Assembly (NCBI GenBank): GCA_017461945.1
Contig: JAFTSB010000062.1
Span: forward strand, 1 to 49,252
Length of the DNA: 49,252 bases
Source: Clostridia bacterium
GTDB lineage: Bacteria; Bacillota; Clostridia; Oscillospirales; CAG-272
Direction: 5' to 3'
The position numbers and the translations under genes are program-made. Numbering within the stretch: the first letter of the stretch is position 1; the number at the start of each line of letters is the position of its first letter. A model generated the notes under the pieces. It saw nothing but the letters and a program-made list of their open reading frames with translations, did no database searches and was not told the DNA's origin. Positions 28,618 to 40,204 of the stretch are shown in pieces.

Positions 28618-29709
28618 TTATGCTTTGGGATGATTGGCGGCAAATTCCTTCATAAAGGCCACCAGCTTTTCTACACCCTCCATGGGCATAGCATTGTAGA
28701 TCGAAGCGCGCATACCGCCAACCGAACGGTGGCCCTTCAGATTCTTCAGACCTGCCTGAGCGGCCTCGGAGGCAAATTTCTTATCCAGATCGGCATCGCC
28801 GGTGACAAAGGTCACATTCATCAAAGAACGGCTCTCCTTTTTCACGGGTGCAATGTAGTAATCCTGGCTATCCAGATAATCATAGAGCAATGCGGCCTTT
28901 TTCTCGTTATAAGCCTTTTTGGCGGCAAGACCACCGGTGGCCAGCAGATGCTCAAATACCAGCTTGGCGATATAAATGGTATAGGTGGGAGGGGTGTTAT
29001 ACATAGAGCCGTTCTCGGCCATGATCTTCCACTCCAGCATCGTGGGCATTTTGGGATCGGCATATTCCAGCAGATCCTCACGCACGATGACGATGGTCAC
29101 ACCGGCGGGGGCCACATTCTTCTGTGCGCCGGCATAGATCACGCCAAAGCGGCTGACATCCACCGGCTCAGACAAAATGCAGGAGGACATATCTGCCACC
29201 AGCGGAATATCGCCGGTATCCGGAATTTCGGGATATTTGGTGCCGTAAATGGTATTGTTGAAGCACACGTGTACATAGGCGGCGTCCTTGCGGATCATAT
29301 CTCTTGTAAAGGCCGGAATGTGATCGAAATTATCCTCCTTGGAGGTGGCCACGCACTGCACGTCATAGCCCATCTTCTGGGCCTCCTTAAAGGCCTTGCC
29401 AGAGAACTGACCCGATACCACGTAATCGGCCTTGCCGGTACGTGCGATCAGGTTCATGGGAACGGCGGCGAACTGGGTAGAGGCGCCGCCCTGCAAGAAC
29501 AAAACCTTATAGTTGTCGGGGATTTGCATCAGCTCGCGCAGCATACGCTCGGCATCGTTGATAATGGCCTCGTAATCGGGAGAACGGTGAGACATTTCCA
29601 TCACGGACATACCGGACTCACCATAACACAGCAATTCGGACGCTGCTTTTTCCAGTACGGGAACAGGCAGCATAGAGGGGCCAGCCGAAAAATTGAATAC
29701 TCTATTCAT
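28618..29709 (-). CDS. serC: Phosphoserine aminotransferase
   Basis: This PLP enzyme of about 363 aa transfers an amino group from glutamate to 3-phosphohydroxypyruvate. It starts with the family signature NRVFNFSAGPSMLPVPVLE, contains FLQGGASTQFAAVPMNL (phosphate and PLP contacts) and the PLP-lysine region GVIYAGAQKNVAPAGVTIVI, and ends with GGMRASIYNAMPMEGVEKL. Two ATG codons are adjacent (29712, 29709); the second has the better 5-bp spacing from GGAGG. It is the first gene of serC-serA. Confidence 0.95.
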   Translation of the reverse strand: MNRVFNFSAGPSMLPVPVLEKAASELLCYGESGMSVMEMSHRSPDYEAIINDAERMLRELMQIPDNYKVLFLQGGASTQFAAVPMNLIARTGKADYVVSGQFSGKAFKEAQKMGYDVQCVATSKEDNFDHIPAFTRDMIRKDAAYVHVCFNNTIYGTKYPEIPDTGDIPLVADMSSCILSEPVDVSRFGVIYAGAQKNVAPAGVTIVIVREDLLEYADPKMPTMLEWKIMAENGSMYNTPPTYTIYIAKLVFEHLLATGGLAAKKAYNEKKAALLYDYLDSQDYYIAPVKKESRSLMNVTFVTGDADLDKKFASEAAQAGLKNLKGHRSVGGMRASIYNAMPMEGVEKLVAFMKEFAANHPKA

Positions 29710-29823: not shown

Positions 29824-29918
29824 GAGCTTTGCAAAAATTCGTTTATTTTTTAGTATAACGCCCCCACCCTTTTGCTATTTTTTGCATTTTCATACACAAA
29901 AAGGAATAAAAATGTAAA

Positions 29919-29976
29919 GGCACGGGCACCGCCGGTGCCCGTGCCCATGACCGTCATAGCCGGTCATTTTTTCTTT
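29919..29976. terminator. Two adjacent hairpins ending the capsid cassette
   Basis: A GC-rich hairpin (GGCACGGGCACC with GGTGCCCGTGCC, about 29920-29946) sits next to a second one (ATGACCG with CGGTCAT, 29947-29967) whose T-run favours plus-strand termination. On the minus strand the first hairpin is followed by a T-rich stretch. They lie just past the last cassette gene (stop at 29995) and insulate it from serC. Confidence 0.6.
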
Positions 29977-29994: not shown

Positions 29995-30444
29995 TTATCT
30001 GGAGGCGGCAAGCTCACCCACCAGCACCAAGGCGCGGCGCAGCTCCAAAAGAGCCTCTTTGGCCTCGTCCCTTTCGTTCTCGGCAGCCTTAGCACGTGCC
30101 TCGGCATCCGCAGCGGAAAGCTCCAACTCCTTATTTTCGTTCTCCAGATCCGCAAGCAACGCCTCCAGCTCCAGCACGCGCTGCTCCTTTTCGGCCAGCT
30201 GCTCATCCAAAAGCTCGGCATTTACGCTCTCGCTTACCCCTTCCGATACCGCGCCGGCATCAAAGGTGGGATTATCAAACCAAGCCTCACCGGCCATCTT
30301 AACGCAGTCCTGCAAAACGGGATCCCATCCATAGGATTTGGTCTCGGTATAACCGCGGTACTGCTTGATAGCGGGGTTGGCCTTTACCTTTTCATACAGC
30401 ACCCTTACATCTTCGCGGGTGCTGACCTTTTCCTGATAATTCAA
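29995..30444 (-). CDS. Coiled-coil protein at the end of the capsid cassette
   Basis: This protein is about 149 aa. The start is a TTG at 30444 (Met-Asn-Tyr-Gln-Glu-Lys) six bases after AAGGAG; the longer frame to 30555 runs into the neighbouring gene. The N-terminal half (EDVRVLYEKVKANPAIKQYR; ETKSYGWDPVLQDCV) looks globular. The C-terminal half is a long Glu/Ala/Leu coiled coil (about residues 80-145, LLDEQLAEKEQRVLELEALL). It is the last gene of the packaging/capsid unit. The role is unknown; a virion-associated or head-decoration protein is possible. Confidence 0.7.
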   Translation of the reverse strand: MNYQEKVSTREDVRVLYEKVKANPAIKQYRGYTETKSYGWDPVLQDCVKMAGEAWFDNPTFDAGAVSEGVSESVNAELLDEQLAEKEQRVLELEALLADLENENKELELSAADAEARAKAAENERDEAKEALLELRRALVLVGELAASR

Positions 30445-30458
30445 GCCTTTCTCCTTTC

Positions 30459-30815
30459 TTATTCCAAATGTTCCCTGTCGGTGCTGTTCACCTGCTTGGA
30501 GAAGGCGATGTCCGCTTCGATCTGCTCGATCATAGCCGATTCGTCGAAGGAGCATCCCCGCTCCGCCACAAAAAGGCGCAGGCGTGACAGCACGTATTGC
30601 AGCTTTTCGGCGGCATCGTAATGCACCAGGCGCTCAGCCTCGCATTCGTATTCCCGTGCCGCCTCCAGAATAGCCAGCCAATCCTCGGCACTTTTGGTGC
30701 GCCCTGCCCGAAAGGACCGGCAAATATTATAGACCAATCCCAGCGCATTCACAAGCACGCCAAGGCAGATGCAGATCAGCTCCCAGTTCCGGTTTAACCA
30801 CAAGATCACATTCAT
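30459..30815 (-). CDS. Small membrane protein of the capsid cassette
   Basis: This is a 118-aa protein with one clear N-terminal membrane segment (about residues 12-32, LICICLGVLVNALGLVYNIC) and a charged C-terminal region with predicted helices. The topology resembles some single-span phage holins, but no holin family can be assigned and no lysin gene accompanies it. The start at 30815 follows GAGAGGAAATAAC. It lies 14 bp before the coiled-coil gene and 45 bp after the preceding gene. Confidence 0.65.
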   Translation of the reverse strand: MNVILWLNRNWELICICLGVLVNALGLVYNICRSFRAGRTKSAEDWLAILEAAREYECEAERLVHYDAAEKLQYVLSRLRLFVAERGCSFDESAMIEQIEADIAFSKQVNSTDREHLE

Positions 30816-30860
30816 GTTATTTCCTCTCTTTCACCCGATGCCGTTATGGGTGAGGAAATA

Positions 30861-31265
30861 TCATACGCTGTGGCGCAGGCTCTCGCTGGCGAATCGCTTG
30901 GCCTCCTGCTCCATGAGCTCGGCGGTGCGCAGATCCTGGATTTCGGATTGATCCAGCAGCAATGCAAATTTGCGACGGATGCGCGTCCATACGCCGCGGC
31001 GGATCACGCAGTTCTTGCCATTGATGGCCACATAAACGTCATCCTTATATTTTTCGTTATCCTTGAACAAGCGCACCTCTACGTATTCGTTGAGCCACGC
31101 CTCCTGCTCGCGCAGATGCTCGCGATAACGCTCGCGATCAAAGACCTGGTCAGCCTTTTCGCGGCAGCGCGCCTCCAGCATGCCGATCTTCTCCTCGTAT
31201 GCGGCGCGCATTTCCTCCATCTCACGGCGCAGAGCCTTGAGACCTGTATTCTCTTTTCCTTCCAT
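30861..31265 (-). CDS. Hypothetical cassette protein, charged and helical
   Basis: This is a 134-aa protein rich in Glu, Arg and Lys. Residues 1-60 look like a coiled coil (LKALRREMEEMRAAYEEKIG), followed by a short beta-like segment (DDVYVAINGKNCVIRRGVW). A C-terminal helix contains LDQSEIQDLRTAELMEQEAK. The start at 31265 follows AAAGGACG. It is the first gene after the major capsid protein, separated by a strong hairpin. Its position is where head-completion or decoration proteins often sit, but no family is recognised. Confidence 0.68.
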   Translation of the reverse strand: MEGKENTGLKALRREMEEMRAAYEEKIGMLEARCREKADQVFDRERYREHLREQEAWLNEYVEVRLFKDNEKYKDDVYVAINGKNCVIRRGVWTRIRRKFALLLDQSEIQDLRTAELMEQEAKRFASESLRHSV

Positions 31266-31290
31266 AACGGTTCGTCCTTTCTTGATTGAC

Positions 31291-31315
31291 GGGGCGGCAA
31301 GCCGCCCCTTTTTTT
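31291..31315 (+). terminator. Strong hairpin with T-tract, antisense orientation
   Basis: GGGGCGGC (31291-31298) and GCCGCCCC (31301-31308) form a perfect stem, followed by seven T on the plus strand, so as a terminator it works for plus-strand transcripts. In the capsid mRNA (minus strand) it lies 2-27 nt after the capsid stop without a U-tract. There it may stabilise the transcript's 3' end or mark a processing site. Confidence 0.6.
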
Positions 31316-31317
31316 GA

Positions 31318-32721
31318 TTAGTTCAGGCTGCCGTCAAAGGAGGAGGCGGTCTCGATTCTGACCATAAATGCCTCTACCAGACGTGTTGCAGCCTTGGTGG
31401 CCTTCCAGCCCACGGTGGCGCGCTGGTTCAGCGGGTCTGCTGTGCCGGCAGAGCCCAGCTGCTTGACGATGTGCTGCAGGCCGCCACCGGCAAGCTCCGT
31501 GGTACCGTAGGCGTTATCACCCATGACCAACGTGGCGTAAACGTCACGGCCGGCAAGACCTGCCTCACCGGGGTAGATAACATCGTCCTCAGCCGACACG
31601 AGAACCTCGTTGCCAACACCGCCCTTTACCAGGTTGCGGTCAAAGTAGATGTACCACGAATCGTCAGCACCGCCGTAAGCACCTACGATAACAGCATACT
31701 GCCAGCTATCCTCCGACTTGTCGTGATACAGAATGGGGCGTCCGATCAATTCCTTGGGAACCGCGCCGAAGCCCTCACCGGAATCGCCCTCGGTCACCTG
31801 CATACGATACTTGGTACCGGTGCCAAAGCCCTCGCTGACGGCACCTACATTGCTCATGGCGGAGTAGGATTCGGGGAGACAGCGGAAGCTTCTGAAGCGA
31901 TCCGTCAGATCTGCGGCGTGGAACACCTTGGCCTCGGTAGACTCCACAAAGCGCACGCCCTCCAGCATGCCGATCTCGCCCTCGTAAAGAGCCTTGGGAT
32001 CGTTATACTGATGGGGATACTTCCAATTGGGGTCAGAGGTGAGATCATAGGCGCAATCGGGATGAATGATGCAGGCGTATGCGCCGTTGATCTTCTCTGC
32101 GTTCTGATTTTTCAGGGTACGCACGGCGCGCTTGATGCACTCCACGGTCAGATAGTGGTTGCCCTCCTCGGCGCCGCCCACCAGCAGGTAGCGGGCCGGA
32201 ACGGCGTCCTCGCCGTACTGCACGTTGGTACCGCCGCACAGCACCTCACGGGTAATGGTATCCAGCGTACGGCCGGCCTGAGAGCCCAGCAGCTTGGTGG
32301 CCATTACCAGATTGTTATCAATGGCGGTCAGCAAAAGCAGGTCGGAAAACTCCACATAACCGCCATACTGGTGCAGCGTGGTTTCCACCACGCCCATGTT
32401 CAGCGTCTGCCCCGTGGGGGTCACGCCCTCGGAAAGAGCGCTGGTCAGCTTGGGCAGCGGATCATACTTGCGGAACTGAACGGTCTTGCCGCCATTCTGA
32501 GGGATGGTGTGCTTTTGGCCAAACTGATCGTGGATCAGGTTGGGCTCAGCATTGTCGATGAGAAAATCGGCATAATAGGTGCGCATTTCGGGGGAAAGTC
32601 CGCCCTCAGCGCTATAAGGGGTTACAGTACCCTTGTTGGCGTTGACAACGCCGGTGGTGGTACTGACAACATCATCTGCACCAAACAGGTGCAGATCAAA
32701 ATTCATGTGCTTTTCTTTCAT
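31318..32721 (-). CDS. N4-gp56-type major capsid protein
   Basis: This 467-aa protein is the shell subunit of a phage-like head. Family features are the early PEMRTYYADFLIDNAEPNLI segment, the NGGKTVQFRKYDPLP and SEGVTPTGQTLNMG stretch, a central region with IHPDCAYDLTSDPNWKYP, and the C-terminal GWKATKAATRLVEAFMVRIE. The N-terminus MKEKHMNFDLHLFGADD carries the LHLFG motif also found in the scaffold-like protein, resembling the sites cut by Prp proteases. The start at 32721 follows AAAGGAAAAG. The reading frame is intact and full length. Confidence 0.92.
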   Translation of the reverse strand: MKEKHMNFDLHLFGADDVVSTTTGVVNANKGTVTPYSAEGGLSPEMRTYYADFLIDNAEPNLIHDQFGQKHTIPQNGGKTVQFRKYDPLPKLTSALSEGVTPTGQTLNMGVVETTLHQYGGYVEFSDLLLLTAIDNNLVMATKLLGSQAGRTLDTITREVLCGGTNVQYGEDAVPARYLLVGGAEEGNHYLTVECIKRAVRTLKNQNAEKINGAYACIIHPDCAYDLTSDPNWKYPHQYNDPKALYEGEIGMLEGVRFVESTEAKVFHAADLTDRFRSFRCLPESYSAMSNVGAVSEGFGTGTKYRMQVTEGDSGEGFGAVPKELIGRPILYHDKSEDSWQYAVIVGAYGGADDSWYIYFDRNLVKGGVGNEVLVSAEDDVIYPGEAGLAGRDVYATLVMGDNAYGTTELAGGGLQHIVKQLGSAGTADPLNQRATVGWKATKAATRLVEAFMVRIETASSFDGSLN

Positions 32722-32754
32722 GTTTCTTTTCCTTTCTTTTGTGTGACAAAAGGA

Positions 32755-33345
32755 TCAGAACCAGATGCGCTCTCCCTTGGCCGCACGGCGTGCCATATCG
32801 GCGCGTTGCTCGCGGGAAAGTGCCTGCACCGTGCCAAGGCCGGGGGATTCCCCCGTGGCGTGCAAAGCGCTTTCGGCAGGGCGGAGACCGCGGGCGCGGA
32901 TCTGCGCCAGCAGCGCAGCCTCGGTTTCGGCACGTACTCGTGCCGTGGTCTCTCGCACAGCCTGCTCCAGATCGGCGCTGTCAAATGTGCGATCTGCGCA
33001 GCGTTGTACGGCCTGCGGCAGCTCCTCCGGGCGAACACCCAATATGCCTGCCACGTTCTCGATCAGGGATCTGGCGCGCTCCAGCTCCTCCTTTATGTCC
33101 TTTTGTTCCCGAAATCGGCGGTTAAAGGTCTCCTGAAAATACGCTGTGAACAGATCTTTATATTCTCCGTCCATCATCGCGCGGAACCGTTGCCGACGCG
33201 CTTCGGGTTGTTGGTCTGCTGTCTCCTCGGCGGCAGGAGCGCTGGTATTGCTTTCGCCCGATGTCTGTGGGGTGAGTTCAGACAGATCCTCGCATCCGTC
33301 GGCTTCGCCGAACAGATGCAGCCACCCCCAATAGATGTGTTGCAT
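32755..33345 (-). CDS. Probable capsid scaffolding protein
   Basis: This is a 196-aa, highly charged, helix-rich protein immediately upstream of the major capsid gene, the usual place of a scaffold. A Ser/Thr/Glu-rich linker (residues 20-48) is followed by coiled-coil-prone helices (YFQETFNRRFREQKDIKEEL; AVRETTARVRAETEAALLAQ) and a basic end (ADMARRAAKGERIWF), a pattern typical of scaffolds that bind capsid through a basic C-terminus. The N-terminus contains WLHLFGEADG, matching the motif at the capsid N-terminus. The assignment rests on position, composition and motif. Confidence 0.72.
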   Translation of the reverse strand: MQHIYWGWLHLFGEADGCEDLSELTPQTSGESNTSAPAAEETADQQPEARRQRFRAMMDGEYKDLFTAYFQETFNRRFREQKDIKEELERARSLIENVAGILGVRPEELPQAVQRCADRTFDSADLEQAVRETTARVRAETEAALLAQIRARGLRPAESALHATGESPGLGTVQALSREQRADMARRAAKGERIWF

Positions 33346-33370
33346 AGCTCCTCTTTTCGATGGTGCGAGT

Positions 33371-33428
33371 CGGTGGGGCGGATCGAACCAAATATCAAGT
33401 GTGTGCCGATTGCGTCCGTGCCCCCACC
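33371..33428 (-). other. Structured intergenic segment between the Prp-like and scaffold genes
   Basis: CGGTGGGG (33371-33378) and CCCCACCG (33421-33428) can form an 8-bp stem extendable inside by CGGA/TCCG around a loop of about 30 nt. It sits in the longest gap of the operon, just before the scaffold ribosome binding site, and may tune translation of the scaffold. Confidence 0.4.
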
Positions 33429-33432
33429 GGGC

Positions 33433-33735
33433 TCATGGATGTGGTTGACGTTCGATGACCAGATCCTCGGGGTATTGCTCGGCCATAGCGGCAAGACCGT
33501 TCATCACCAAAGCAAACCCCTGGTCCAATCCGTGGCAGGATAAAAAGACCTCCCCCGGCTGCATACTGTAGCGCACACGGTGGCAGTCCGGTGCCTGCAG
33601 CGCGTAAAAGATCAATGCCCCTGCCAGAGCGGAAACGCCGGTGCATACCGCCTCTCGTTCCGCCCCTGCCATGGCGTGTCCCGTCGCCAAAAAGCGGCAA
33701 CGGTCACCGATTTTATCTGCAAAAATGCGGATCAT
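33433..33735 (-). CDS. Prp-like cysteine protease encoded in the capsid cassette
   Basis: This 100-aa protein is related to Prp (YsxB), the cysteine protease that trims the N-terminus of ribosomal protein L27 in Bacillota. The catalytic pair is readable: His20 in ATGHAMAG and Cys31 in AVCTGVSALAGALIFYAL, with the Ser that follows also conserved. The His-Cys spacing is one residue shorter than in the cellular enzyme. The start overlaps the portal stop (ATGA at 33732-33735), so translation is coupled. In Staphylococcus phage 80-alpha the host Prp cuts the capsid and scaffold N-termini; here the protease is encoded between portal and scaffold, suggesting it is the cassette's own maturation protease (inferred). 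Confidence 0.82.
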   Translation of the reverse strand: MIRIFADKIGDRCRFLATGHAMAGAEREAVCTGVSALAGALIFYALQAPDCHRVRYSMQPGEVFLSCHGLDQGFALVMNGLAAMAEQYPEDLVIERQPHP

Positions 33736-35423
33736 CCCCGTGCTTCCTCGACTTTAGCGCGGCTGATCTGCAGCGCGGTTCCAAGAGGATCGGCATGAAG
33801 GTTCGCACCTGCTGTTCCACTCTCAGCCGACACGGCCCTTGCACGCGCTTCCCTTGTACGGGCAATCAGCTGAGCGCGCAGACGACCCGCGCCGGAGAAA
33901 TCCATACAGGAAAGCAGCAGCGCCGCCTCCTCGGCGTTTTCGGGCTTGAAAACGCCCATATTGTACAGCTCTTTCACGGTTTCATTGTGAGAGAAACGGC
34001 TATACGGGTCCTTCTTTTCGGCACGTACGTCAATATCAAAAACGGGATGACGCAGGGCGCCCTCTTCGGTTGTGCCCCCGGAAAGACCGTTTGCCGAAAA
34101 GGTGATGAATTCCCGTTCACCGGTCTCGCCAATGATGCGGAAGCAGCGGGATTCCCGATAGAACTGTCGCATGCACTCGATCACCAGATGCACGATGCGA
34201 ACGTAGGCACGGTAAGAGGCCGCCACCATATCACGCACCGTTTTGTTCCCTGCCTCTTGTAAGGCGGTAATGGCCGAGGCCGCCACCACACCGCCATCGG
34301 CACCGCCCTGCAGAAGATTGCGATTGGTCGTGGTTTCCTTCAGCTCGTCGATCTTGGCGCGCTTCAGCTCCAGCCAGAGATCGTTCAAGGGCTCTACCGT
34401 GATCTGACGCAAGCGCTCCTCGTCGATCTCGCCCTCCACCTGCACGATGGGACAAGTCAGATCGGTGAATTGCTCGGCATCCACGCCGGTGGAATTTTTG
34501 CAGAAAAACCGCACACGGGTCGCCCAATCCATGTATTCCAGCAGATTGCGATCCATACGGTCAATGTACAGCTGAGGATCGCGGGAAATGGCAATGAAGC
34601 CAAAGCCGACCGCCTCATCCTCGATGGGATACAGCACGTCCAGTACAAAGGGATACTGCCCATGCTCGTACCATCCATTCTCATATTCCTCCTCATTCTC
34701 ACTGGCAAACAGCACCGCCTCGCCGGCAAACTTGCAATAGTGCAGCACCGTGCGCCCATCGGGCAGGCGCTTTTTGTAATACCAATCCACCACGGGAATG
34801 CGGTCGCCATCTCCTGCGGATAGCAGAGCGCCGGAGGTTTGTTCCAGCTTTTTGTTATCAAAGCGAGGATACATGGCACGCAAGGTGTCACCATCCACAT
34901 AATCCACGTAATAGACCGAACGGGACTGCTGCAGATCCCGAATGTGGGGCTGCCAGAACAAGCGACGCAGATCCACACGGCAGACCTCGATGTCGCCAAG
35001 TCCGTTGTCGATCTCGTTGTTCCAAAGCACGCCATAGGCGCAAACGCCGTGCTTGAGCTTATACCACATATTATCGGAGTAGATCTCCTCAAAGCGATTG
35101 CGCTCCATCACCACGGGTAGAATGTGCGACAGCTGATCGGCCATTGGCTCGTCTCCCGGCTCCCGTGCAAGGCACGCAGCGGTGGGAATGTTTTCCATCA
35201 TATCGGCATGCTTTTGCACAAGGGTGTTGAACAGCCACGCCGAGGTGGGGGCAAACCGCTCCCCTTCGGTGTTGGCATGCACCTTGGGGCAAACGCGCAT
35301 CCGATAAAACTCTTCCTCTGCCGCCACTCTGGCTAAAAATTCTGCCTGGGCGCCCTGCCAGGAAATCAGCTCTCCCATTGCGGCCTTTACTTTGGCGGCA
35401 TCGATGATGTTTTTCTTTCTCAT
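33732..35423 (-). CDS. Phage-type portal protein
   Basis: This protein of about 563 aa would form the DNA-entry ring of the head. Recognisable features are PTSAWLFNTLVQKHADMMEN near the start, a central stem/crown region (RDPQLYIDRMDRNLLEYMDW; ETTTNRNLLQGGADGGVVAA, then SAITALQEAGNKTVRDM) and a C-terminal helical domain rich in Arg and Ala. This matches portals that accompany N4-gp56-type capsids. The ATG at 35423 is chosen because AAAGGAGAG lies upstream. It lies 45 bp after the terminase gene and overlaps the Prp-like gene. It is full length and intact. Confidence 0.85.
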   Translation of the reverse strand: MRKKNIIDAAKVKAAMGELISWQGAQAEFLARVAAEEEFYRMRVCPKVHANTEGERFAPTSAWLFNTLVQKHADMMENIPTAACLAREPGDEPMADQLSHILPVVMERNRFEEIYSDNMWYKLKHGVCAYGVLWNNEIDNGLGDIEVCRVDLRRLFWQPHIRDLQQSRSVYYVDYVDGDTLRAMYPRFDNKKLEQTSGALLSAGDGDRIPVVDWYYKKRLPDGRTVLHYCKFAGEAVLFASENEEEYENGWYEHGQYPFVLDVLYPIEDEAVGFGFIAISRDPQLYIDRMDRNLLEYMDWATRVRFFCKNSTGVDAEQFTDLTCPIVQVEGEIDEERLRQITVEPLNDLWLELKRAKIDELKETTTNRNLLQGGADGGVVAASAITALQEAGNKTVRDMVAASYRAYVRIVHLVIECMRQFYRESRCFRIIGETGEREFITFSANGLSGGTTEEGALRHPVFDIDVRAEKKDPYSRFSHNETVKELYNMGVFKPENAEEAALLLSCMDFSGAGRLRAQLIARTREARARAVSAESGTAGANLHADPLGTALQISRAKVEEARG

Positions 35424-35468
35424 ATACTCTCCTTTTTTCACGTTTTTCGCAGAACGGTTGTGTGTTTT

Positions 35469-36893
35469 TCAACCTTCTCTTTGCTCTGCCCGAACCTGAT
35501 AGGTGCGGATCGGGCGATCCAAGGGATCCCATACCGTCACCGCCGCGTGGGTCTTTTTCTCTGCCCCGCGCATGGGTATCAGCATACACAAGTAGCGGCT
35601 TTCATCGGCAATGTGATCCTCCAGATCCGAGTCCACGTCCTCCGGGTGCGTTCTGCTGTATTGCAGAGCCGGCACGGTGCGGATAAACTCCCTGCAGGTG
35701 CGAAAGATGTACAGCATCGGCACACCGGCCTTATCAAATTGCAATCGGTTATGCAGCTGCATCCAGCCTGCAACGCGGCGGTTATCACCGCGCTCGAAAT
35801 ACACCCCCAACCGTTCGCCCGTTTCGGCCACGGATTCCCCTCGGGAGGCATCCCAGATGGCCGGATCGGCCACACCGGTTATGCGACGGCCGCGCAGAAA
35901 GGGATGCTCCCGTTCCAGTCTGCCGATCTCCCGAAAGATCTCCTCGGGACTCCAGCGCACCCCCACGTTGGCCTCTCGCGGCGCGCAGCCGTAAAGCTCC
36001 AGGATGCGGTAAAGGCGGCCATCACCGTCCTTGGCCCACCAGCCCACCGAAAAGGGCTTGGCATAGCCAAAGTCGAAGGACCGGTAAACACGCCAGCTCT
36101 CGGGGGGCACGAAGGGATCGATCACATGAGTGTGCAAGCGATCGGCATAATGCTGGGGATCGTTGCAAAACTCCTCAAACACCTGTCCCTCGTATACGTT
36201 CCAATCTCCCAGCAAATGGGCGCGACGCTTATGCTCGGGCAGAGCCTCCAGCCGTTTCACATAATCCGGGTCCGCCTCCATCAGCACGCCGTTGTCGTAA
36301 ACACCTGCCGGAATGAACAGATAGTCGTCGGGGTCTTCTCCCTCCCGAAAGCAACGATCCACAAACAGGCGCTTGATATAGGCGTGCCCTACGCCGCCCG
36401 GATTGCAGGTATAATAAATGCGTGGCAAAAATCCTTTTTTGGTCGTACGCAGGGCGGTAGAAATGAACACCATCCACTCCTCTTTCAGTTGCGTAGCTTC
36501 CTCAAAGCCGATCACATCGTATTCCGCTCCTTGGTATTGCAGCACATCGCTGTCGCTGTCGCAGTACCCCAACGTGAGACGTGAGCCGTTCGGAAAAACG
36601 AAGGTACGTTCTTCCTTTTTATATTCCGCATAGCCCAACAAGTCGGATTGCAACGGCAGGAGATGGTTTTCCCGCAGCTCCTGCAGGGTTCGGCGCAGCA
36701 GCAGCAACCGCAGCTTGGGATATCGCATTGCCAGCATGACCAGCTTGCGCCGCATGGCATAGGATTTACCGCCTCCACGGGCGCCGCCATAGGCTGTGTA
36801 CCGTGCTGTTGAGCAAAAAAAGCGCTGTTGCTTGGGATTAGGCACCTCGCGGCGCAGCTTTTCAAAAATGGGAGCTTCGTTTTTCTTTTTCAT
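35469..36893 (-). CDS. Terminase large subunit
   Basis: This DNA-packaging ATPase/nuclease is about 474 aa. The Walker A motif is YGGARGGGKSYAMRRK (GGARGGGKS at residues 36-44); Walker B is YDVIGFEEAT (FEEAT at 130-134); the coupling motif is in YTCNPGG. The C-terminal nuclease domain has acidic residues in RSFDFGYAKP, GVADPAIWDAS and HPEDVDSDLEDHIADESRY. The ATG at 36893 overlaps the preceding stop (ATGA). No lesions are visible, so the motor is probably functional. Confidence 0.92.
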   Translation of the reverse strand: MKKKNEAPIFEKLRREVPNPKQQRFFCSTARYTAYGGARGGGKSYAMRRKLVMLAMRYPKLRLLLLRRTLQELRENHLLPLQSDLLGYAEYKKEERTFVFPNGSRLTLGYCDSDSDVLQYQGAEYDVIGFEEATQLKEEWMVFISTALRTTKKGFLPRIYYTCNPGGVGHAYIKRLFVDRCFREGEDPDDYLFIPAGVYDNGVLMEADPDYVKRLEALPEHKRRAHLLGDWNVYEGQVFEEFCNDPQHYADRLHTHVIDPFVPPESWRVYRSFDFGYAKPFSVGWWAKDGDGRLYRILELYGCAPREANVGVRWSPEEIFREIGRLEREHPFLRGRRITGVADPAIWDASRGESVAETGERLGVYFERGDNRRVAGWMQLHNRLQFDKAGVPMLYIFRTCREFIRTVPALQYSRTHPEDVDSDLEDHIADESRYLCMLIPMRGAEKKTHAAVTVWDPLDRPIRTYQVRAEQREG

Positions 36894-37159
36894 CGACTCC
36901 ACTCCTCCAGCACCCCTTCAAACAACACGGTCGTAGGGGGCGGCGCATCGGGCTCGGCACTTTGCGCCGCCGTAGCCTTGCCGCAGGCGCGATCCAGAAT
37001 GCTTTCGGCTGCCTTCATCCGCAGCTCGGCTTTCTGGCTTTCGTCTCGCATCACCTCCACCAAAAAGCTGACCGCCTCCGGGGTGCGCTCAGTCAGAATA
37101 CGCCGCATTTCCTCCACGGGGCCTTTGGCCGTATCAGGCCTTGACTTCCTCGAGGTCAC
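36890..37159 (-). CDS. Probable small terminase subunit-like protein
   Basis: This is a short helical protein of about 89 aa directly upstream of the large terminase gene, overlapping its start (ATGA), where small terminase subunits normally lie. The start is taken as GTG at 37159, which has GAGGAGG six bases upstream and overlaps the previous gene by 26 bp; longer frames lack a site. The core VEEMRRILTERTPEAVSFLV and MKAAESILDRACGKA resemble small helical terminase or DNA-binding proteins. The assignment is by position. Confidence 0.65.
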   Translation of the reverse strand: MTSRKSRPDTAKGPVEEMRRILTERTPEAVSFLVEVMRDESQKAELRMKAAESILDRACGKATAAQSAEPDAPPPTTVLFEGVLEEWSR

Positions 37160-37508
37160 GAAGCACCTCCTCATCCGACTCGGTAGCAAGGATCGCACTC
37201 TCTCTTGCACCGGGCATAAAGCGCAGGCGATAGCTGTCGCCCCCATCCTCCACCTCACAGTGCCATGTGCCCAACGCTGCACTGACGGCAGCCTTGGAGA
37301 TCTCTACCACACGGTGTCCGTTGTCGTCCTGCTCTCCCATCGTGCTCATGGCGTAAAAAAGCAACGTATAAAGAATGTTGCTTTCTTCCTCGTGGCCGGC
37401 CACGCGTTTTTGCAGCTTTTCGATGTGACGATCGCGCCAGCCCAGCATATATCCCACACGCTTGGGGTCGCGACAAAGTAACTCGATCTGTTTTTCCTGA
37501 ATGCTCAT
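37134..37508 (-). CDS. Hypothetical cassette protein
   Basis: This is a 124-aa protein. The N-terminal half (QIELLCRDPKRVGYMLGWRD, RHIEKLQKRV) is helical and could bind DNA; the C-terminal half contains EVEDGGDSYRLRFMPGARES, a beta-rich stretch. The start at 37508 follows GGAAAGGAAAG and overlaps the previous stop (ATGA). Its position before the terminase genes suggests a regulator or packaging accessory, but I do not recognise a family. Confidence 0.7.
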   Translation of the reverse strand: MSIQEKQIELLCRDPKRVGYMLGWRDRHIEKLQKRVAGHEEESNILYTLLFYAMSTMGEQDDNGHRVVEISKAAVSAALGTWHCEVEDGGDSYRLRFMPGARESAILATESDEEVLRDLEEVKA

Positions 37509-37702
37509 ATTCTCTTTCCTTTCCTTGTTGGTATCAGCGATACCGTTCTGATTTCGGGACGCCCGGAACGCGGGGCGGTCGCGCCCGGTTCGTCGGTCGG
37601 TTCAAATGTTTCAATTTTAGGACGATTGCCCATAAAAAAGAAGTCATTTTCGCTGCGAATCGCCTTGCTATTTTTCACATATCGCAAATCCAACGGCTTC
37701 AT
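37505..37702 (-). CDS. Small first gene of the capsid cassette
   Basis: This 65-aa basic protein has no recognised domain. The ATG at 37702 follows AGGA and lies about 18 nt from the predicted transcription start. A longer frame to 37738 would begin inside the promoter and is rejected. Its stop overlaps the next start (ATGA), which supports its being translated. Confidence 0.55.
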   Translation of the reverse strand: MKPLDLRYVKNSKAIRSENDFFFMGNRPKIETFEPTDEPGATAPRSGRPEIRTVSLIPTRKGKRI

Positions 37703-37726
37703 TCGTCCTATTTGTGGAACGATGCC

Positions 37727-37755
37727 AGTATACACCATATCCCATTTCTTGTCAA
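37727..37755 (-). promoter_or_regulatory. Consensus promoter driving the capsid cassette
   Basis: On the minus strand TTGACA (37750-37755) and TATACT (37727-37732) are exactly 17 bp apart, one mismatch from consensus. The first gene starts about 18 nt after the expected transcription start. No other promoter was found within the cassette. Confidence 0.8.
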
Positions 37756-37792: not shown

Positions 37793-37810
37793 CGTCACAT
37801 TTTTGTGACG
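37793..37810. promoter_or_regulatory. Palindromic operator candidate
   Basis: CGTCACA-TTTT-TGTGACG is a perfect 18-bp palindrome between the two divergent promoters. It ends 5 bp before the repressor's -35 and lies 37 bp upstream of the cassette's -35. The adjacent helix-turn-helix protein is the likely ligand. Confidence 0.65.
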
Positions 37811-37815
37811 GCCGC

Positions 37816-37844
37816 TTGACACTCTCTTCCAAAACTATTAAAAT
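37816..37844 (+). promoter_or_regulatory. Promoter of the repressor-ImmA-glpK transcript
   Basis: TTGACA (37816-37821) and TAAAAT (37839-37844) at 17 bp. The transcription start near 37851 fits translation from 37882 only. Confidence 0.8.
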
Positions 37845-37881: not shown

Positions 37882-38196
37882 ATGACCGTATCTGAACGAA
37901 TCCGTGCGCAAATGGAGCTGCGCGGTCTTTCCTATGGCGAGCTTGCCGCCGCCACGGGATTGGCCAAGTCGGCGGTTCACCGTTACGCCACAGGCGAGAC
38001 CGGAAAGATCCCCACCGAGGCACTGGAAAAGCTGGCGCGGGCTCTGGGTGTGACCCCTGCCTATCTCACCGGATGGGAGGAGCGCCCCCATACCCTTGCC
38101 GCCCATTTTGAGGGCGAGGAATTTTCGGAGGATGAACTGCGCGAAATTGAGAACTTCGTGCGCTTTGTCAAATCCCGCCGTCGCTCACAGGGGTGA
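37882..38196 (+). CDS. Helix-turn-helix (XRE/Cro-CI type) repressor
   Basis: This DNA-binding protein is about 104 aa. The helix-turn-helix spans roughly residues 16-37 (YGELAAATGLAKSAVHRYAT), followed by EALEKLARALGVTPAYLTGW, the usual end of the XRE domain. The C-terminal third (EEFSEDELREIENFVRFVKS) is a helical dimerisation-like tail. The start at 37882 is the only one compatible with the promoter. It is divergent from the capsid cassette, with a palindrome between, and is the likely repressor of one or both promoters. The next gene is an ImmA/IrrE-like protein, the classical partner that removes such repressors. Confidence 0.88.
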   Translation: MTVSERIRAQMELRGLSYGELAAATGLAKSAVHRYATGETGKIPTEALEKLARALGVTPAYLTGWEERPHTLAAHFEGEEFSEDELREIENFVRFVKSRRRSQG

Positions 38197-38201
38197 TCGC
38201 A

Positions 38202-38699
38202 ATGCCGAGCTATGATCGTTTATTGGATGAAGCGGCGGCACAGGGACTCACCGTGATCGAGCGTTATCCCTTTGCCTCCTCTCGCATCCGTGGTCTTTGC
38301 TGCGACGACACCATTGCCCTCTCGGCCCACATTGACACCGAGGCCGAGCGCCGTGTGGTGCTTGGCGAGGAGCTGACCCACGCCCTGCATTCGGCAGGTG
38401 ATATTCTGGATGACCCCCGTATGGAACGGCGCGCACGTGAGCGGAATTTTGACCGCATGGTGGGACTTGCCGGCTTGGTCAGCGCCTATCTTTCCGGTTG
38501 CCGCGAGCTGTGGGAATTCGCCGAGAGTCTGAACGTTCCCGAAACCTTTCTGGCCGAGGTCATGGGCAATTATCGGGAGCGCTATGGCACTCATGTGACG
38601 GTGACCACACCCCAAGGAACCTTTGCACTTTCCTTTGATCCCCTGTTTCGGGTCAGACGCTTGGTGCGCTCCAAGCAGGGCGTACAGCACAAAAAATAA
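38202..38699 (+). CDS. ImmA/IrrE-family metallopeptidase-like protein
   Basis: This protein is about 165 aa. The zinc-site region reads [16 protein letters not shown], so the usual HExxH is ExxxH-like here (Glu-Glu-Leu-Thr-His), a variant frequently seen in ImmA-like proteins of Bacillota prophages. [20 protein letters not shown] fits the helical part of the fold. The ATG at 38202 is chosen because AGGGGTGA lies six bases upstream, while a GTG at 38193 overlaps the repressor stop. Proteins of this family cleave their partner XRE repressor. It ends 8 bp before glpK. Confidence 0.8.
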
Positions 38700-38707
38700 G
38701 GAGACGT

Positions 38708-40204
38708 ATGATGAAAAAATATCTGATGGCCTTGGATCAAGGCACCACCAGCTCCCGCTGTGTGATCTTTGATAGCAAGGGGCAGACCATTGCCTCGGCC
38801 TCCAAGGAATTCACCCAATACTTCCCCCACGAGGGGTGGGTCGAGCACGATGCAAACGAGATCTGGGAAAGTCAGCTCTACTGTGCCCGTGAGGCCTTGA
38901 AGCGTGCCGCCCTTGCCCCGGAGGATATTGCCGCCATCGGCATCACCAACCAAAGAGAGACCACCATTGTGTGGGATAAAACCACCGGCGAGCCCATTTG
39001 CCCCGCCATTGTGTGGCAATGCCGCCGTACCGCCGCCGCGTGCGAGGCGCTGGTGGCCGATGGACTGGCGGAGACCATCCGCCAAAAGACCGGCCTTGCG
39101 GTCGACCCCTATTTTTCCGCCACCAAGCTCCAATGGATCCTGGATCACGTAGAAGGGGCGCGTCGACGCGCCGAGCGGGGCGAGCTGCTGTTCGGCACGG
39201 TGGATTGCTTTCTGATCTATCGCCTAACGGGCGGCCGCGTTCACGCCACGGATCCCTCCAACGCCGCGCGCACCATGCTGTTCAATATTCACGATATGGC
39301 GTGGGATGCCGACCTGTTAAAGCTGTTCCGCATTCCTGCCTGTATGCTGCCCGAGGTGCGCCCCTCCTGCGGTGTGTTCGGTTACACCGATCCCGCACTG
39401 CTGGGGGCATCCATTCCCGTGGCAGGCGTGGCCGGCGACCAGCAGGCGGCACTGTTTGGTCAATGCTGCTTTGAGCCTGGGGCGGTCAAAAATACATACG
39501 GCACCGGCGGCTTTTTGCTGATGAACACCGGCGACCGCGCCGTCGCCTCCGAGCACGGTCTGCTGACCACGGTTGGCTGGCAGATCGGCGATCAGGTCAC
39601 CTATGTACTGGAGGGCTCGGTATTTGTGTGCGGCGCGGCTATCCAGTGGCTACGCGATGGCCTGGGGCTGCTTTCCACCGCTGCCGAAAGCGAGGCGGTT
39701 GCCTTGACTGTGCCCGACACGGGCAACGTATATTTCGTGCCTGCCCTCACCGGTCTTGGCACACCCTATTGGGATCCTTACGCCAGAGGCACTTTGGTTG
39801 GCATTACACGCGCCACCACCCGGGCGCACATCGTCCGCGCCACCCTGGAGGCTATGGCCTGGCAGACCGTTGACCTGCTGGAGGCTATGAAGCAGGATGC
39901 GGGCGTGACCATCCCTGCCCTGCGCGTGGACGGCGGTGCCAGCGCCAACAACCTGCTGCTGCAAATGCAAAGCGACTTCTCCGCCCTGCCCATCCTGCGC
40001 CCCGCCTGCATCGAAACCACCGCCCTTGGCGCCGCCAATCTGGCCGGTCTTGCGGTTGGCGTATTCCGCGATCTTGACGAGATCAAAGAAAACGTGGCCG
40101 TTGAGCGCACCTTTACCCCTGCCCTGCCCGAAGCCGAGCGTACCGCCCGCCTTGGTGATTGGCACCGCGCCGTGGAACGAGCGCTGAAGTGGGTGGAGGG
40201 TTGA
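38708..40204 (+). CDS. glpK: Glycerol kinase
   Basis: This 498-aa enzyme phosphorylates glycerol to glycerol 3-phosphate with ATP. The signature segments are [60 protein letters not shown] and [20 protein letters not shown], and the C-terminal [17 protein letters not shown]. Two consecutive ATG codons (38708, 38711) follow AAGGAG. It begins 8 bp after the ImmA-like gene with no promoter between, so it appears co-transcribed with the repressor of the capsid cassette. No glpF or glpO/D is adjacent. Confidence 0.96.

Follow-up and report, generated by a model that had tools for sequence, protein, structure and literature searches.

A vertically inherited phage head and packaging cassette beside glpK in a genus of gut Clostridia as a candidate gene-transfer-agent-type device

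The stretch of DNA analysed here (the window) comprises positions 1–49,252 of contig JAFTSB010000062.1 in a metagenome-assembled genome (MAG) of a Clostridia bacterium (GTDB: Oscillospirales, CAG-272; assembly GCA_017461945.1). A cassette of phage-type head and packaging genes was located on its minus strand at 29995–37508, between the host genes glpK and serC. Family searches in the window and a comparison over 81 loci indicated that this block encodes ten conserved proteins behind one promoter: a small (TerS) and a large (TerL) terminase subunit, a P22-type portal, a Prp-like protease, a scaffold-like protein, an N4-gp56 capsid protein and four small proteins. The loci were obtained by scanning GTDB contigs with a capsid alignment, which yielded 86 relatives, the best 80 of which were used. 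Nineteen loci, namely the window and 18 loci of its genus (L041–L058, with the core of L044 identical to that of L043), are referred to as the genus loci.

A preliminary description of the sequence had listed eleven minus-strand genes. Its head and packaging genes were real, since capsid, portal, TerL, Prp-like and TerS-like proteins were all recovered by family searches, and ten of the eleven genes were supported. The first conserved gene of the operon, g2 (37134–37508, 124 aa), was detected with an iterated profile in 48 of the 81 loci. The TerS-like protein (36890–37282, 130 aa) matched phrog_15261, a family of unknown function (2.5e-8), and the terminase small subunit family phrog_2538 (3e-4). 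TerL (35469–36902, 477 aa) matched PF03237/PF04466 and, at E ~1e-4, the PDB entries 4ife/4idh ('Gene 2 protein'); residues K46, S47, E134, E135, D277, D346, D429 and D433, which we take to be the expected ATPase and nuclease residues, were kept in all 19 genus loci. The portal (33732–35423, 563 aa; PF16510 3.1e-21, phrog_156 1.1e-60) had a 4-base overlap with the gene of the Prp-like cysteine protease (33433–33735, 100 aa; phrog_4478 9.4e-9, PF04327 9.9e-5, the latter under the curated cut-off). His20 and Cys31 of this protease, presumably the catalytic residues, were likewise kept in 19/19 loci. The scaffold-like protein (32755–33345, 196 aa) belongs to a family of unknown function (phrog_13908, 2.5e-20) and was named by its gene position, the profile being found ahead of the capsid gene in 80 of the 81 loci. 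The major capsid protein (31318–32706, 462 aa) was assigned with TIGR04387 (7e-85) and phrog_1357 (1.4e-83). Directly 3' of its gene lay g9 (30861–31265, 134 aa), which matched phrog_15239, also of unknown function (2.9e-22), and was present in 77/81 loci. The protein g10 (30459–30815, 118 aa) had a hydrophobic N-terminal segment and 44–63% identity with eleven relatives; no confident family was found for it (phrog_6918 holin only at E 0.11, no NCBIfam match), and it is called holin-like by anatomy. The coiled-coil-rich g11 (29995–30444, 149 aa), with a TTG start set by homology to the g11 of L049, gave weak PHROG matches only. The eleventh gene of the preliminary description, a 77-aa open reading frame (ORF; 37505–37738, minus strand), matched itself alone among the ORFs of the 81 loci (E 1e-5) and is probably a leader or spurious rather than a conserved gene. 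The g9 and capsid genes contained a 28-base direct repeat (89%; 31172–31199 and 31959–31986), both copies of which read YE-x-IGMLE. A long antisense ORF (690 aa; 31471–33543, plus strand) lay over the capsid and scaffold genes, and long antisense ORFs over these genes were also seen in L021 and L025.

The operon ended, as had been reported, before serC (28618–29703, minus strand; PF00266), at a terminator-like hairpin (29918–29946, minus strand) with a 13-pair stem including 10 G-C pairs, a loop of 3 and a T-rich tail; hairpins of that kind numbered 16 in the region against 9.9 expected. On the other side, glpK (38708–40204, plus strand; PF00370/PF02782) was the left neighbour. Scans with Pfam, PHROG and NCBIfam recognised no integrase, tail, lysin or replication gene among the cassette proteins, and the two borders had no 11-mer in common; both results agree with the preliminary description, which had seen no such genes and no att repeat. 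Integrases were sought by gene families and by reading of the flanks, with no dedicated integrase profile or genome-wide search, and none was found; the large ORFs beside seven loci, when read, included no integrase-like protein. The ORFs of 1682 and 1700 aa that follow g9 in L059 and L066 had, by reading, host-lipoprotein-like starts. Ten further window proteins outside the cassette were scanned, of which nine had families, none of them phage-like, and one had no family.

Two plus-strand genes diverge from the cassette. The first encodes a helix-turn-helix (HTH) protein of the Cro/CI type (37882–38196; PF01381 3.9e-11; conserved start MTVSERI at 37882), the presumed repressor, and the second an ImmA/IrrE-type (Peptidase_M78) protein (38193–38699; PF06114 2e-4, slightly under the cut-off). 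The metal site of the M78 protein read EExxH instead of HExxH, and E59, E60 and H63 were the same in three aligned species. The best PADLOC match of the HTH protein was capH (1.5e-15); over eight cassette proteins, PADLOC otherwise gave regulator-type matches to the HTH protein and a marginal JetC match for g11 (0.0073). CapH works together with an M78-type partner. The divergent pair (37882–38699), which the preliminary description had not included, belongs with the cassette; we infer that the HTH protein acts as its repressor and that the M78 protein relieves repression. Related cassettes in other lineages had a regulator with an S24, LexA-like domain (L061 by Pfam; L068 and L255–L258 by reading), which also points to DNA damage as the signal. 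Since glpK starts 8 bases past the M78 gene (38193–40204 for the two together), glycerol kinase may be read from the repressor promoter.

The promoter named in the preliminary description (37727–37755, minus strand; TTGACA-17-TATACT, 11 of 12) was present. Sites of that quality numbered 4 in the region versus 4.5 expected, so the match by itself proves nothing; its alignment across sister species does support a promoter. A divergent promoter-like site, found by pattern (TTGACA-17-TAAAAT, 37816–37844, plus strand), lay ahead of the repressor gene. The intergenic region between the HTH gene and the cassette was alignable in 18 loci (the window and 17 others; L042, in which no HTH gene had been called, was not among them, the regions of L053 and L056 were cut at 260 bases, and L043 and L044 were alike), and the TTGACA box and a TATA-type box were kept. 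Two operator-like dyads, O1 and O2, lay around the promoter. O1 (CGTCACAAAAATGTGACG, 37793–37810) had perfect 6-bp arms in the window; located in the other regions by its flanks and not its arms, it averaged 4.7 of 6 arm pairs in 18/18 regions against a background of 1.55 over all positions of the same regions, while the arm letters varied. O2 (CGTTCCACAAATAGGACG, 37704–37721, minus strand) lay at the expected transcription start and was found in 16/18 regions, the remaining two being cut short, with a mean of 4.6/6 arm pairs that is biased upwards because the left arm was partly fixed in the search pattern. A third dyad, O3 (CGTCCCGAAATCAGAACG, 37544–37561, minus strand), was identified by pattern in a scan that covered the window only. 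The dyad pattern, written after the sites had been seen, occurred at three places in the 49-kb window, all within 270 bases here.

The capsid was searched with tblastn in 59 genomes, comprising the window genome and its relatives. It was found in 17 of the 20 same-genus genomes beyond the window's own, at full length, with 72–76% identity and no stops, and each of the 18 genus genomes having the cassette (window genome included) gave a single match. Seven core genes (TerS, TerL, portal, Prp, scaffold, capsid and g9) were present and open in all 19 genus loci, and the smaller genes g10, g2 and g11 in 18, 17 and 15, respectively, some contigs ending early. The left neighbour was glpK in 17/19 loci (L041 was without glpK and the contig of L048 ends); the right neighbour was serC in 7/19 and a SpoVAD-like gene, named by reading, in another 7/19, with a contig end in four of the remaining five. 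The alternation of serC and SpoVAD-like neighbours (L043–L051 versus the window) placed a rearrangement breakpoint at the cassette end. The TerL of the window (module 35469–37282) had 79% identity to that of L049, 62–67% to the L113 and L091-type proteins (assigned by row order, 10th and 15th rows) and 40–48% to the other thirteen. These uneven identities suggest that the terminase module of the window was probably swapped.

The three genomes in which the capsid was missed differed from one another. In G005, glpK lay at a contig edge, and G013 had no close glpK in its assembly. G018 (93% complete) had an empty site (L148, 1797–2585), at which glpK and serC adjoined approximately 0.8 kb apart, without the HTH gene, the M78 gene or the cassette; no cassette sequence beyond chance matches was detected in this gap. 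Since G018 was nested within the genus in the rpoB tree (85/84 support), loss of the cassette is the simpler reading. The gap sequence of G018 had a 93-base match (72%) to the end of L048. At other places in their genomes, G018 and G005 each encoded a distant TerL, scoring 327 and 260 bits, respectively, compared with 709–851 in the other genomes. In G018, this gene (L259, 7369–10519) was followed by a portal-like ORF, and the portal alignment itself had no match in the genome; the two genes probably belong to another, unrelated prophage.

The cassette tree and the rpoB tree had 7 of 8 splits in common for the 11 species having both data sets. None of 20,000 label shuffles matched rpoB as well (the most was 5 splits), and the tree distances were correlated with r 0.95. 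The ratio of non-synonymous to synonymous substitution rates (dN/dS), taken for the six most similar distinct pairs (joint dS 0.33–0.79), was 0.015–0.089 for TerL, 0.056–0.163 for the portal and 0.019–0.228 for the capsid; values for g2, terS, prp and scaffold were 0.045–0.375. The host control glpK gave 0.061–0.115 in the four pairs having it. For the window copy against seven relatives, TerL (0.05–0.12) and capsid (0.16–0.29) ratios are rough, since dS was mostly >1. Taken at the level of sequence, these comparisons indicate that the cassette is inherited vertically with the host genus, under purifying selection and at a fixed site.

The genes expected on the tail side of the head were less constant. 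An adaptor-like gene (phrog_12105, a family of unknown function, so that the name follows from position and appearance) was absent in 4 of the 19 genus loci, the window among them. Its profile matched 14 of the 21 genus genomes, with none in the window genome and one internal stop in the copy of G004, and 14 of the 17 sister species having the cassette carried it. If the ancestor had the adaptor, the four absences require at least three losses on the cassette tree. A virion protein of approximately 550 aa (phrog_511, 'internal virion protein') was encoded only in L041 and L049 among the 19 loci (genomes G010 and G016); its profile matched 2 of the 21 genus genomes and not that of the window. 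Searches of PDB sequences returned weak matches for the capsid and the TerL match above, and nothing useful for the phrog_511 protein, g9 or the portal. A GH25 lysin was found in 1 of the 21 genus genomes; fibres and other lysins were outside the profiles searched, and the window MAG is 85% complete. The extra virion gene of G010 and G016 and the adaptor in 14/17 sister species mark the window copy as a reduced version of a cassette that is otherwise somewhat larger.

In the capsid tree, 45 loci formed one clade (support 98). The clade was defined after the tree had been seen and was then rechecked in a 167-row tree, with support of 98 and 90; the branches above it were weak (48 and 37). Its groups sat at their own fixed sites: glpK in the window genus, radC/rpsP-ffh, a DUF4349-like lipoprotein gene (5 loci) and others. 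RadC was named by Pfam, and rpsP, ffh and the DUF4349-like gene by reading. In the radC-ffh group, six loci had radC as one neighbour and seven had rpsP-ffh at the opposite end, and the cassettes were without the adaptor and the phrog_511 protein. Close pairs of this group had dN/dS values of 0.033–0.099 for TerL and 0.048–0.097 for the capsid; the antisense families c3, c12 and c26 were left out of this analysis, and c22, kept with a dN/dS >1, is probably antisense too. From the alignments, three of 29 phrog_511 rows and 20 of 77 g9 rows were left out. Among the best 80 of 394 IMG/VR relatives (capsids <300 aa being left out of the tree), nine fell in the cassette clade, all on contigs of 4.6–11.1 kb, and contigs of approximately 40 kb with further virion genes fell outside it in the 167-row tree, to which phages had been added. 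Two human faecal virome records, L151 (MT836159) and L154 (MT836324), carried a related cassette with, by reading, host-permease-like end genes, and their filing as phage appears doubtful. L150 (MT835662), filed as a bacteriophage, had the cassette amid host-like genes, followed by fibre-like, holin-like and lysozyme-like genes (by reading).

A second genus (G420–G425), outside that clade, had the same families distributed over several places. The capsid was found in 6/6 genomes, with 85–93% identity to that of the query genome. The scaffold-capsid-g9 set lay beside hisS-aspS in four genomes (L114, L115, L117 and L118). In G422 it was flanked by gpr- and citrate-synthase-like genes, and in G425 it adjoined TerS-TerL. 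Capsid dN/dS was 0.045–0.090 in 9/10 pairs (one was saturated), and that of hisS was 0.028–0.074 in 5/6. TerL was found in 5/6 genomes, in four of them on a contig other than the capsid's, where it was preceded by genes for a TerS-like protein and an S24-like repressor. The portal was found in 6/6 and never on the capsid contig; in the three genomes with longer contigs it was followed by Prp, fibre-like, membrane-type and amidase-/peptidase-like genes, the adaptor and phrog_511, the names of the middle genes being given by reading. In G422, TerL and portal were on one contig approximately 43 kb apart, so the scatter is not due to assembly breakage alone. A capsid-only, encapsulin-like cassette had been considered for the L114 group and was dropped, as TerL and portal occur elsewhere in the same genomes. 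By its gene content, this genus (L252–L258, L267–L271), with its set over up to three places, is a strong gene-transfer-agent candidate. By gene neighbourhood, related head modules have separate fixed sites in four lineages or more: at glpK, at radC-ffh, at the DUF4349-like gene and in this multi-locus genus.

Among known phages, Bacillus megaterium phage Page (NC_022764, a Pagevirus podovirus) had a similar order of terS, terL, portal, a further gene, capsid and a g9-like gene. The portal (1.5e-14), capsid (3e-78), g9 (6.6e-8, to the gene after the capsid) and phrog_511 (1.5e-4) profiles matched Page, and the TerS, TerL, Prp, scaffold and adaptor profiles had no match at E 0.01. The Page capsid had 36% identity over 69% of the query. 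With 39.9 kb, this phage also carries spike, fibre, lysis and replication genes. Capsid-forming phage-inducible chromosomal islands (PICIs) encode their own head and packaging genes, are mobile by means of an integrase and att sites, and borrow tails from a helper. The window cassette also has its own head and packaging genes; in contrast to these islands, no integrase, border repeats or mobility were seen. The PBSX element of Bacillus subtilis has many tail genes. It is described as a Gram-positive element resembling gene transfer agents (GTAs) that does not inject DNA and acts as a tailocin (PMC12946183).

The closest known system is FpGTA of Faecalibacterium (Borodovich et al. 2026, PMC12946183). 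As described there, it is podovirus-like and without replication genes. FpGTA I particles, encoded by a 10.5-kb operon, measured 40 nm, had no identifiable tails and contained 8.4–8.9 kb of DNA from across the host genome; they are not reported to have delivered it to recipients (PMC12946183). FpGTA II, in which genes for fibre, holin and endolysin form a 5.5-kb operon of their own, was undetected in seven strains (PMC12946183). By description, FpGTA I and the window cassette are both operons of TerS, TerL, portal, scaffold and capsid genes without replication genes. The window cassette differs from that description in its size (~7.5 kb), its separate Prp gene, its divergent HTH/ImmA pair and its lack of the adaptor and the phrog_511 protein. 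The numbering of the FpGTA capsid and portal accessions (RCH50849.1 and RCH50851.1) leaves one gene between them, a spacing that resembles two human virome contigs with a fused prp-scaffold ORF; both points are circumstantial. In PMC9662315, GTAs are defined by particle proteins derived from caudoviricetes, endogenised, often at several loci, with vertical co-diversification and mostly random packaging of host DNA, and also by own genes that are not fully packageable into the small head and by delivery of DNA to other cells. Of these features, caudoviricete-derived proteins, endogenisation and vertical inheritance were found in the cassette sequences. Self-packaging could go either way, given cassettes of 7.5–8.8 kb and the 8.4–8.9 kb reported as packaged by FpGTA. 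RcGTA-type elements of the Alphaproteobacteria likewise have phage-derived structural genes, are endogenised, often at several loci, and co-diverge with the host (PMC9662315, PMC11841831). Their particles are tailed, whereas the window has a podovirus-type head set, and this likeness too is by description. A genus-wide cassette of the present kind was not described in the titles and abstract openings of the literature covered, which excluded most subscription journals and all preprints.

On this evidence, the cassette is probably a domesticated, inducible, GTA-type packaging head from a podovirus-like phage, vertically inherited and reduced in the window to head and motor. The argument draws on the intact head genes and motor, the fixed site, co-divergence with rpoB, purifying selection, the HTH gene with its dyads, and the loss on the tail side, all of which are read from sequence; from these we infer packaging, release, delivery and a use to the host. 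In the proposed mechanism, the HTH protein, bound at the dyads around the promoter, would keep the operon silent until a signal, probably DNA damage, led its ImmA/IrrE-type partner to remove it. Scaffold, Prp and capsid proteins would then build proheads, which Prp would process, and portal and TerL would fill them with pieces of the host chromosome, the natural substrate for a cassette in which neither replication genes nor an integrase were recognised. A minority of the cells would lyse and release the heads. For the window species, this mechanism predicts heads that contain DNA but have neither adaptor nor tail, provided that no unrecognised tail genes are encoded at another place. Particle production and packaging of host DNA have been shown for FpGTA (PMC12946183), which is why the proposed behaviour is called GTA-type.

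Several points weigh against this interpretation. The hosts are MAGs, and particles, packaged DNA, induction and transfer are predictions from sequence. It is dispensable, as one sister species is without the whole of it. Without the adaptor and the phrog_511 protein, delivery by injection from the window copy is doubtful, and with EExxH in place of HExxH, proteolysis by the M78 protein is not assured. The likeness between FpGTA and the cassette is one of description, and the FpGTA authors caution that purification may have removed tails or that these may be very short (PMC12946183). The window lineage is also the longest branch of the cassette tree, and its median cassette-to-glpK dN ratio was 1.18 (15 pairs) versus 0.89 (104 pairs), in a comparison without L044 (core the same as L043) and without pairs with glpK dN <0.05. 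These two observations make some relaxation of selection possible in the window lineage.

A variant that we take seriously, while giving it less than an even chance, is that the whole genus keeps head and motor under a repressor as a tail-less gene-transfer or DNA-export device, in which DNA-filled heads are the selected product and the DNA is protected but not injected. Such released DNA might serve competence uptake or be part of a suicide response; the adaptor would then have been shed at least three times, and the phrog_511 protein lost in most species. Somewhat less likely is a complete GTA with a second, unlinked locus that encodes its tail, fibre and lysis functions. FpGTA has such a separate fibre/holin/endolysin operon in some Faecalibacterium (PMC12946183), and in G420–G425 the same families occupy as many as three places (repressor-terS-terL; scaffold-capsid-g9; portal-prp together with the adaptor, phrog_511 and fibre-, membrane- and amidase-like genes). 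The range of profiles searched and the incompleteness of the window MAG also leave room for a second locus. Against it, 19 of the 21 genus genomes had nothing for the phrog_511 profile, the window genome had no adaptor, and the GH25 lysin occurred once. A head device with no role in transfer, such as DNA-damage cell suicide that packages the chromosome, or decoy head parts against infecting phages, appears improbable. Retention of head and motor through repeated loss of the adaptor, the CapH-like HTH protein (PADLOC 1.5e-15) and the small membrane-type g10 would suit it, yet PADLOC otherwise returned regulator-type matches and the marginal JetC hit only.

The remaining origins concern how the cassette arose, and two of them had been offered in the preliminary description. 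A decaying prophage remnant whose head genes are merely not yet broken is very unlikely. Tail-side loss is what decay would produce (adaptor absent in 4/19 loci, an internal stop in G004, the phrog_511 protein in only 2/19, the cassette lost in one species), and the extra virion gene of G010 and G016 and the adaptor in 14/17 sister species keep part of that suggestion alive. However, no sister species had a full prophage at the site, the core was open in 19/19 loci at dS 0.33–0.79 in the closest pairs and more elsewhere, dN/dS resembled that of a host enzyme, and the regulatory region was kept. We regard a capsid-forming satellite that borrows the tails of a helper phage as scarcely credible: head genes without tail genes and a CI-like repressor are what such an element would show, but no integrase was recognised, the borders had no common 11-mer, the glpK neighbour was the same in 17/19 loci, the tree matched that of rpoB, and each genome gave a single match. 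An intact prophage was rejected, as the family scans recognised no replication, tail or lysis genes with the head genes. The third suggestion of the preliminary description, a domesticated gene-transfer or encapsulation device, is the one favoured by the fixed site, vertical inheritance, purifying selection and the conserved repressor-operator region.

To our knowledge, gene transfer agents outside the Alphaproteobacteria are barely known. The first podovirus-like one was reported in 2026, from Faecalibacterium (PMC12946183). The present comparisons show that selection has maintained a similar design, control region included, across entire genera of uncultured Clostridia of the gut. They also supply sequence markers with which such elements could be recognised in virome data, in which these contigs are now filed as phages. 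In these bacteria, selection appears to keep head and motor and to let go of the adaptor and the tail side, and the purpose of a tail-less packaging device would thereby become directly testable.

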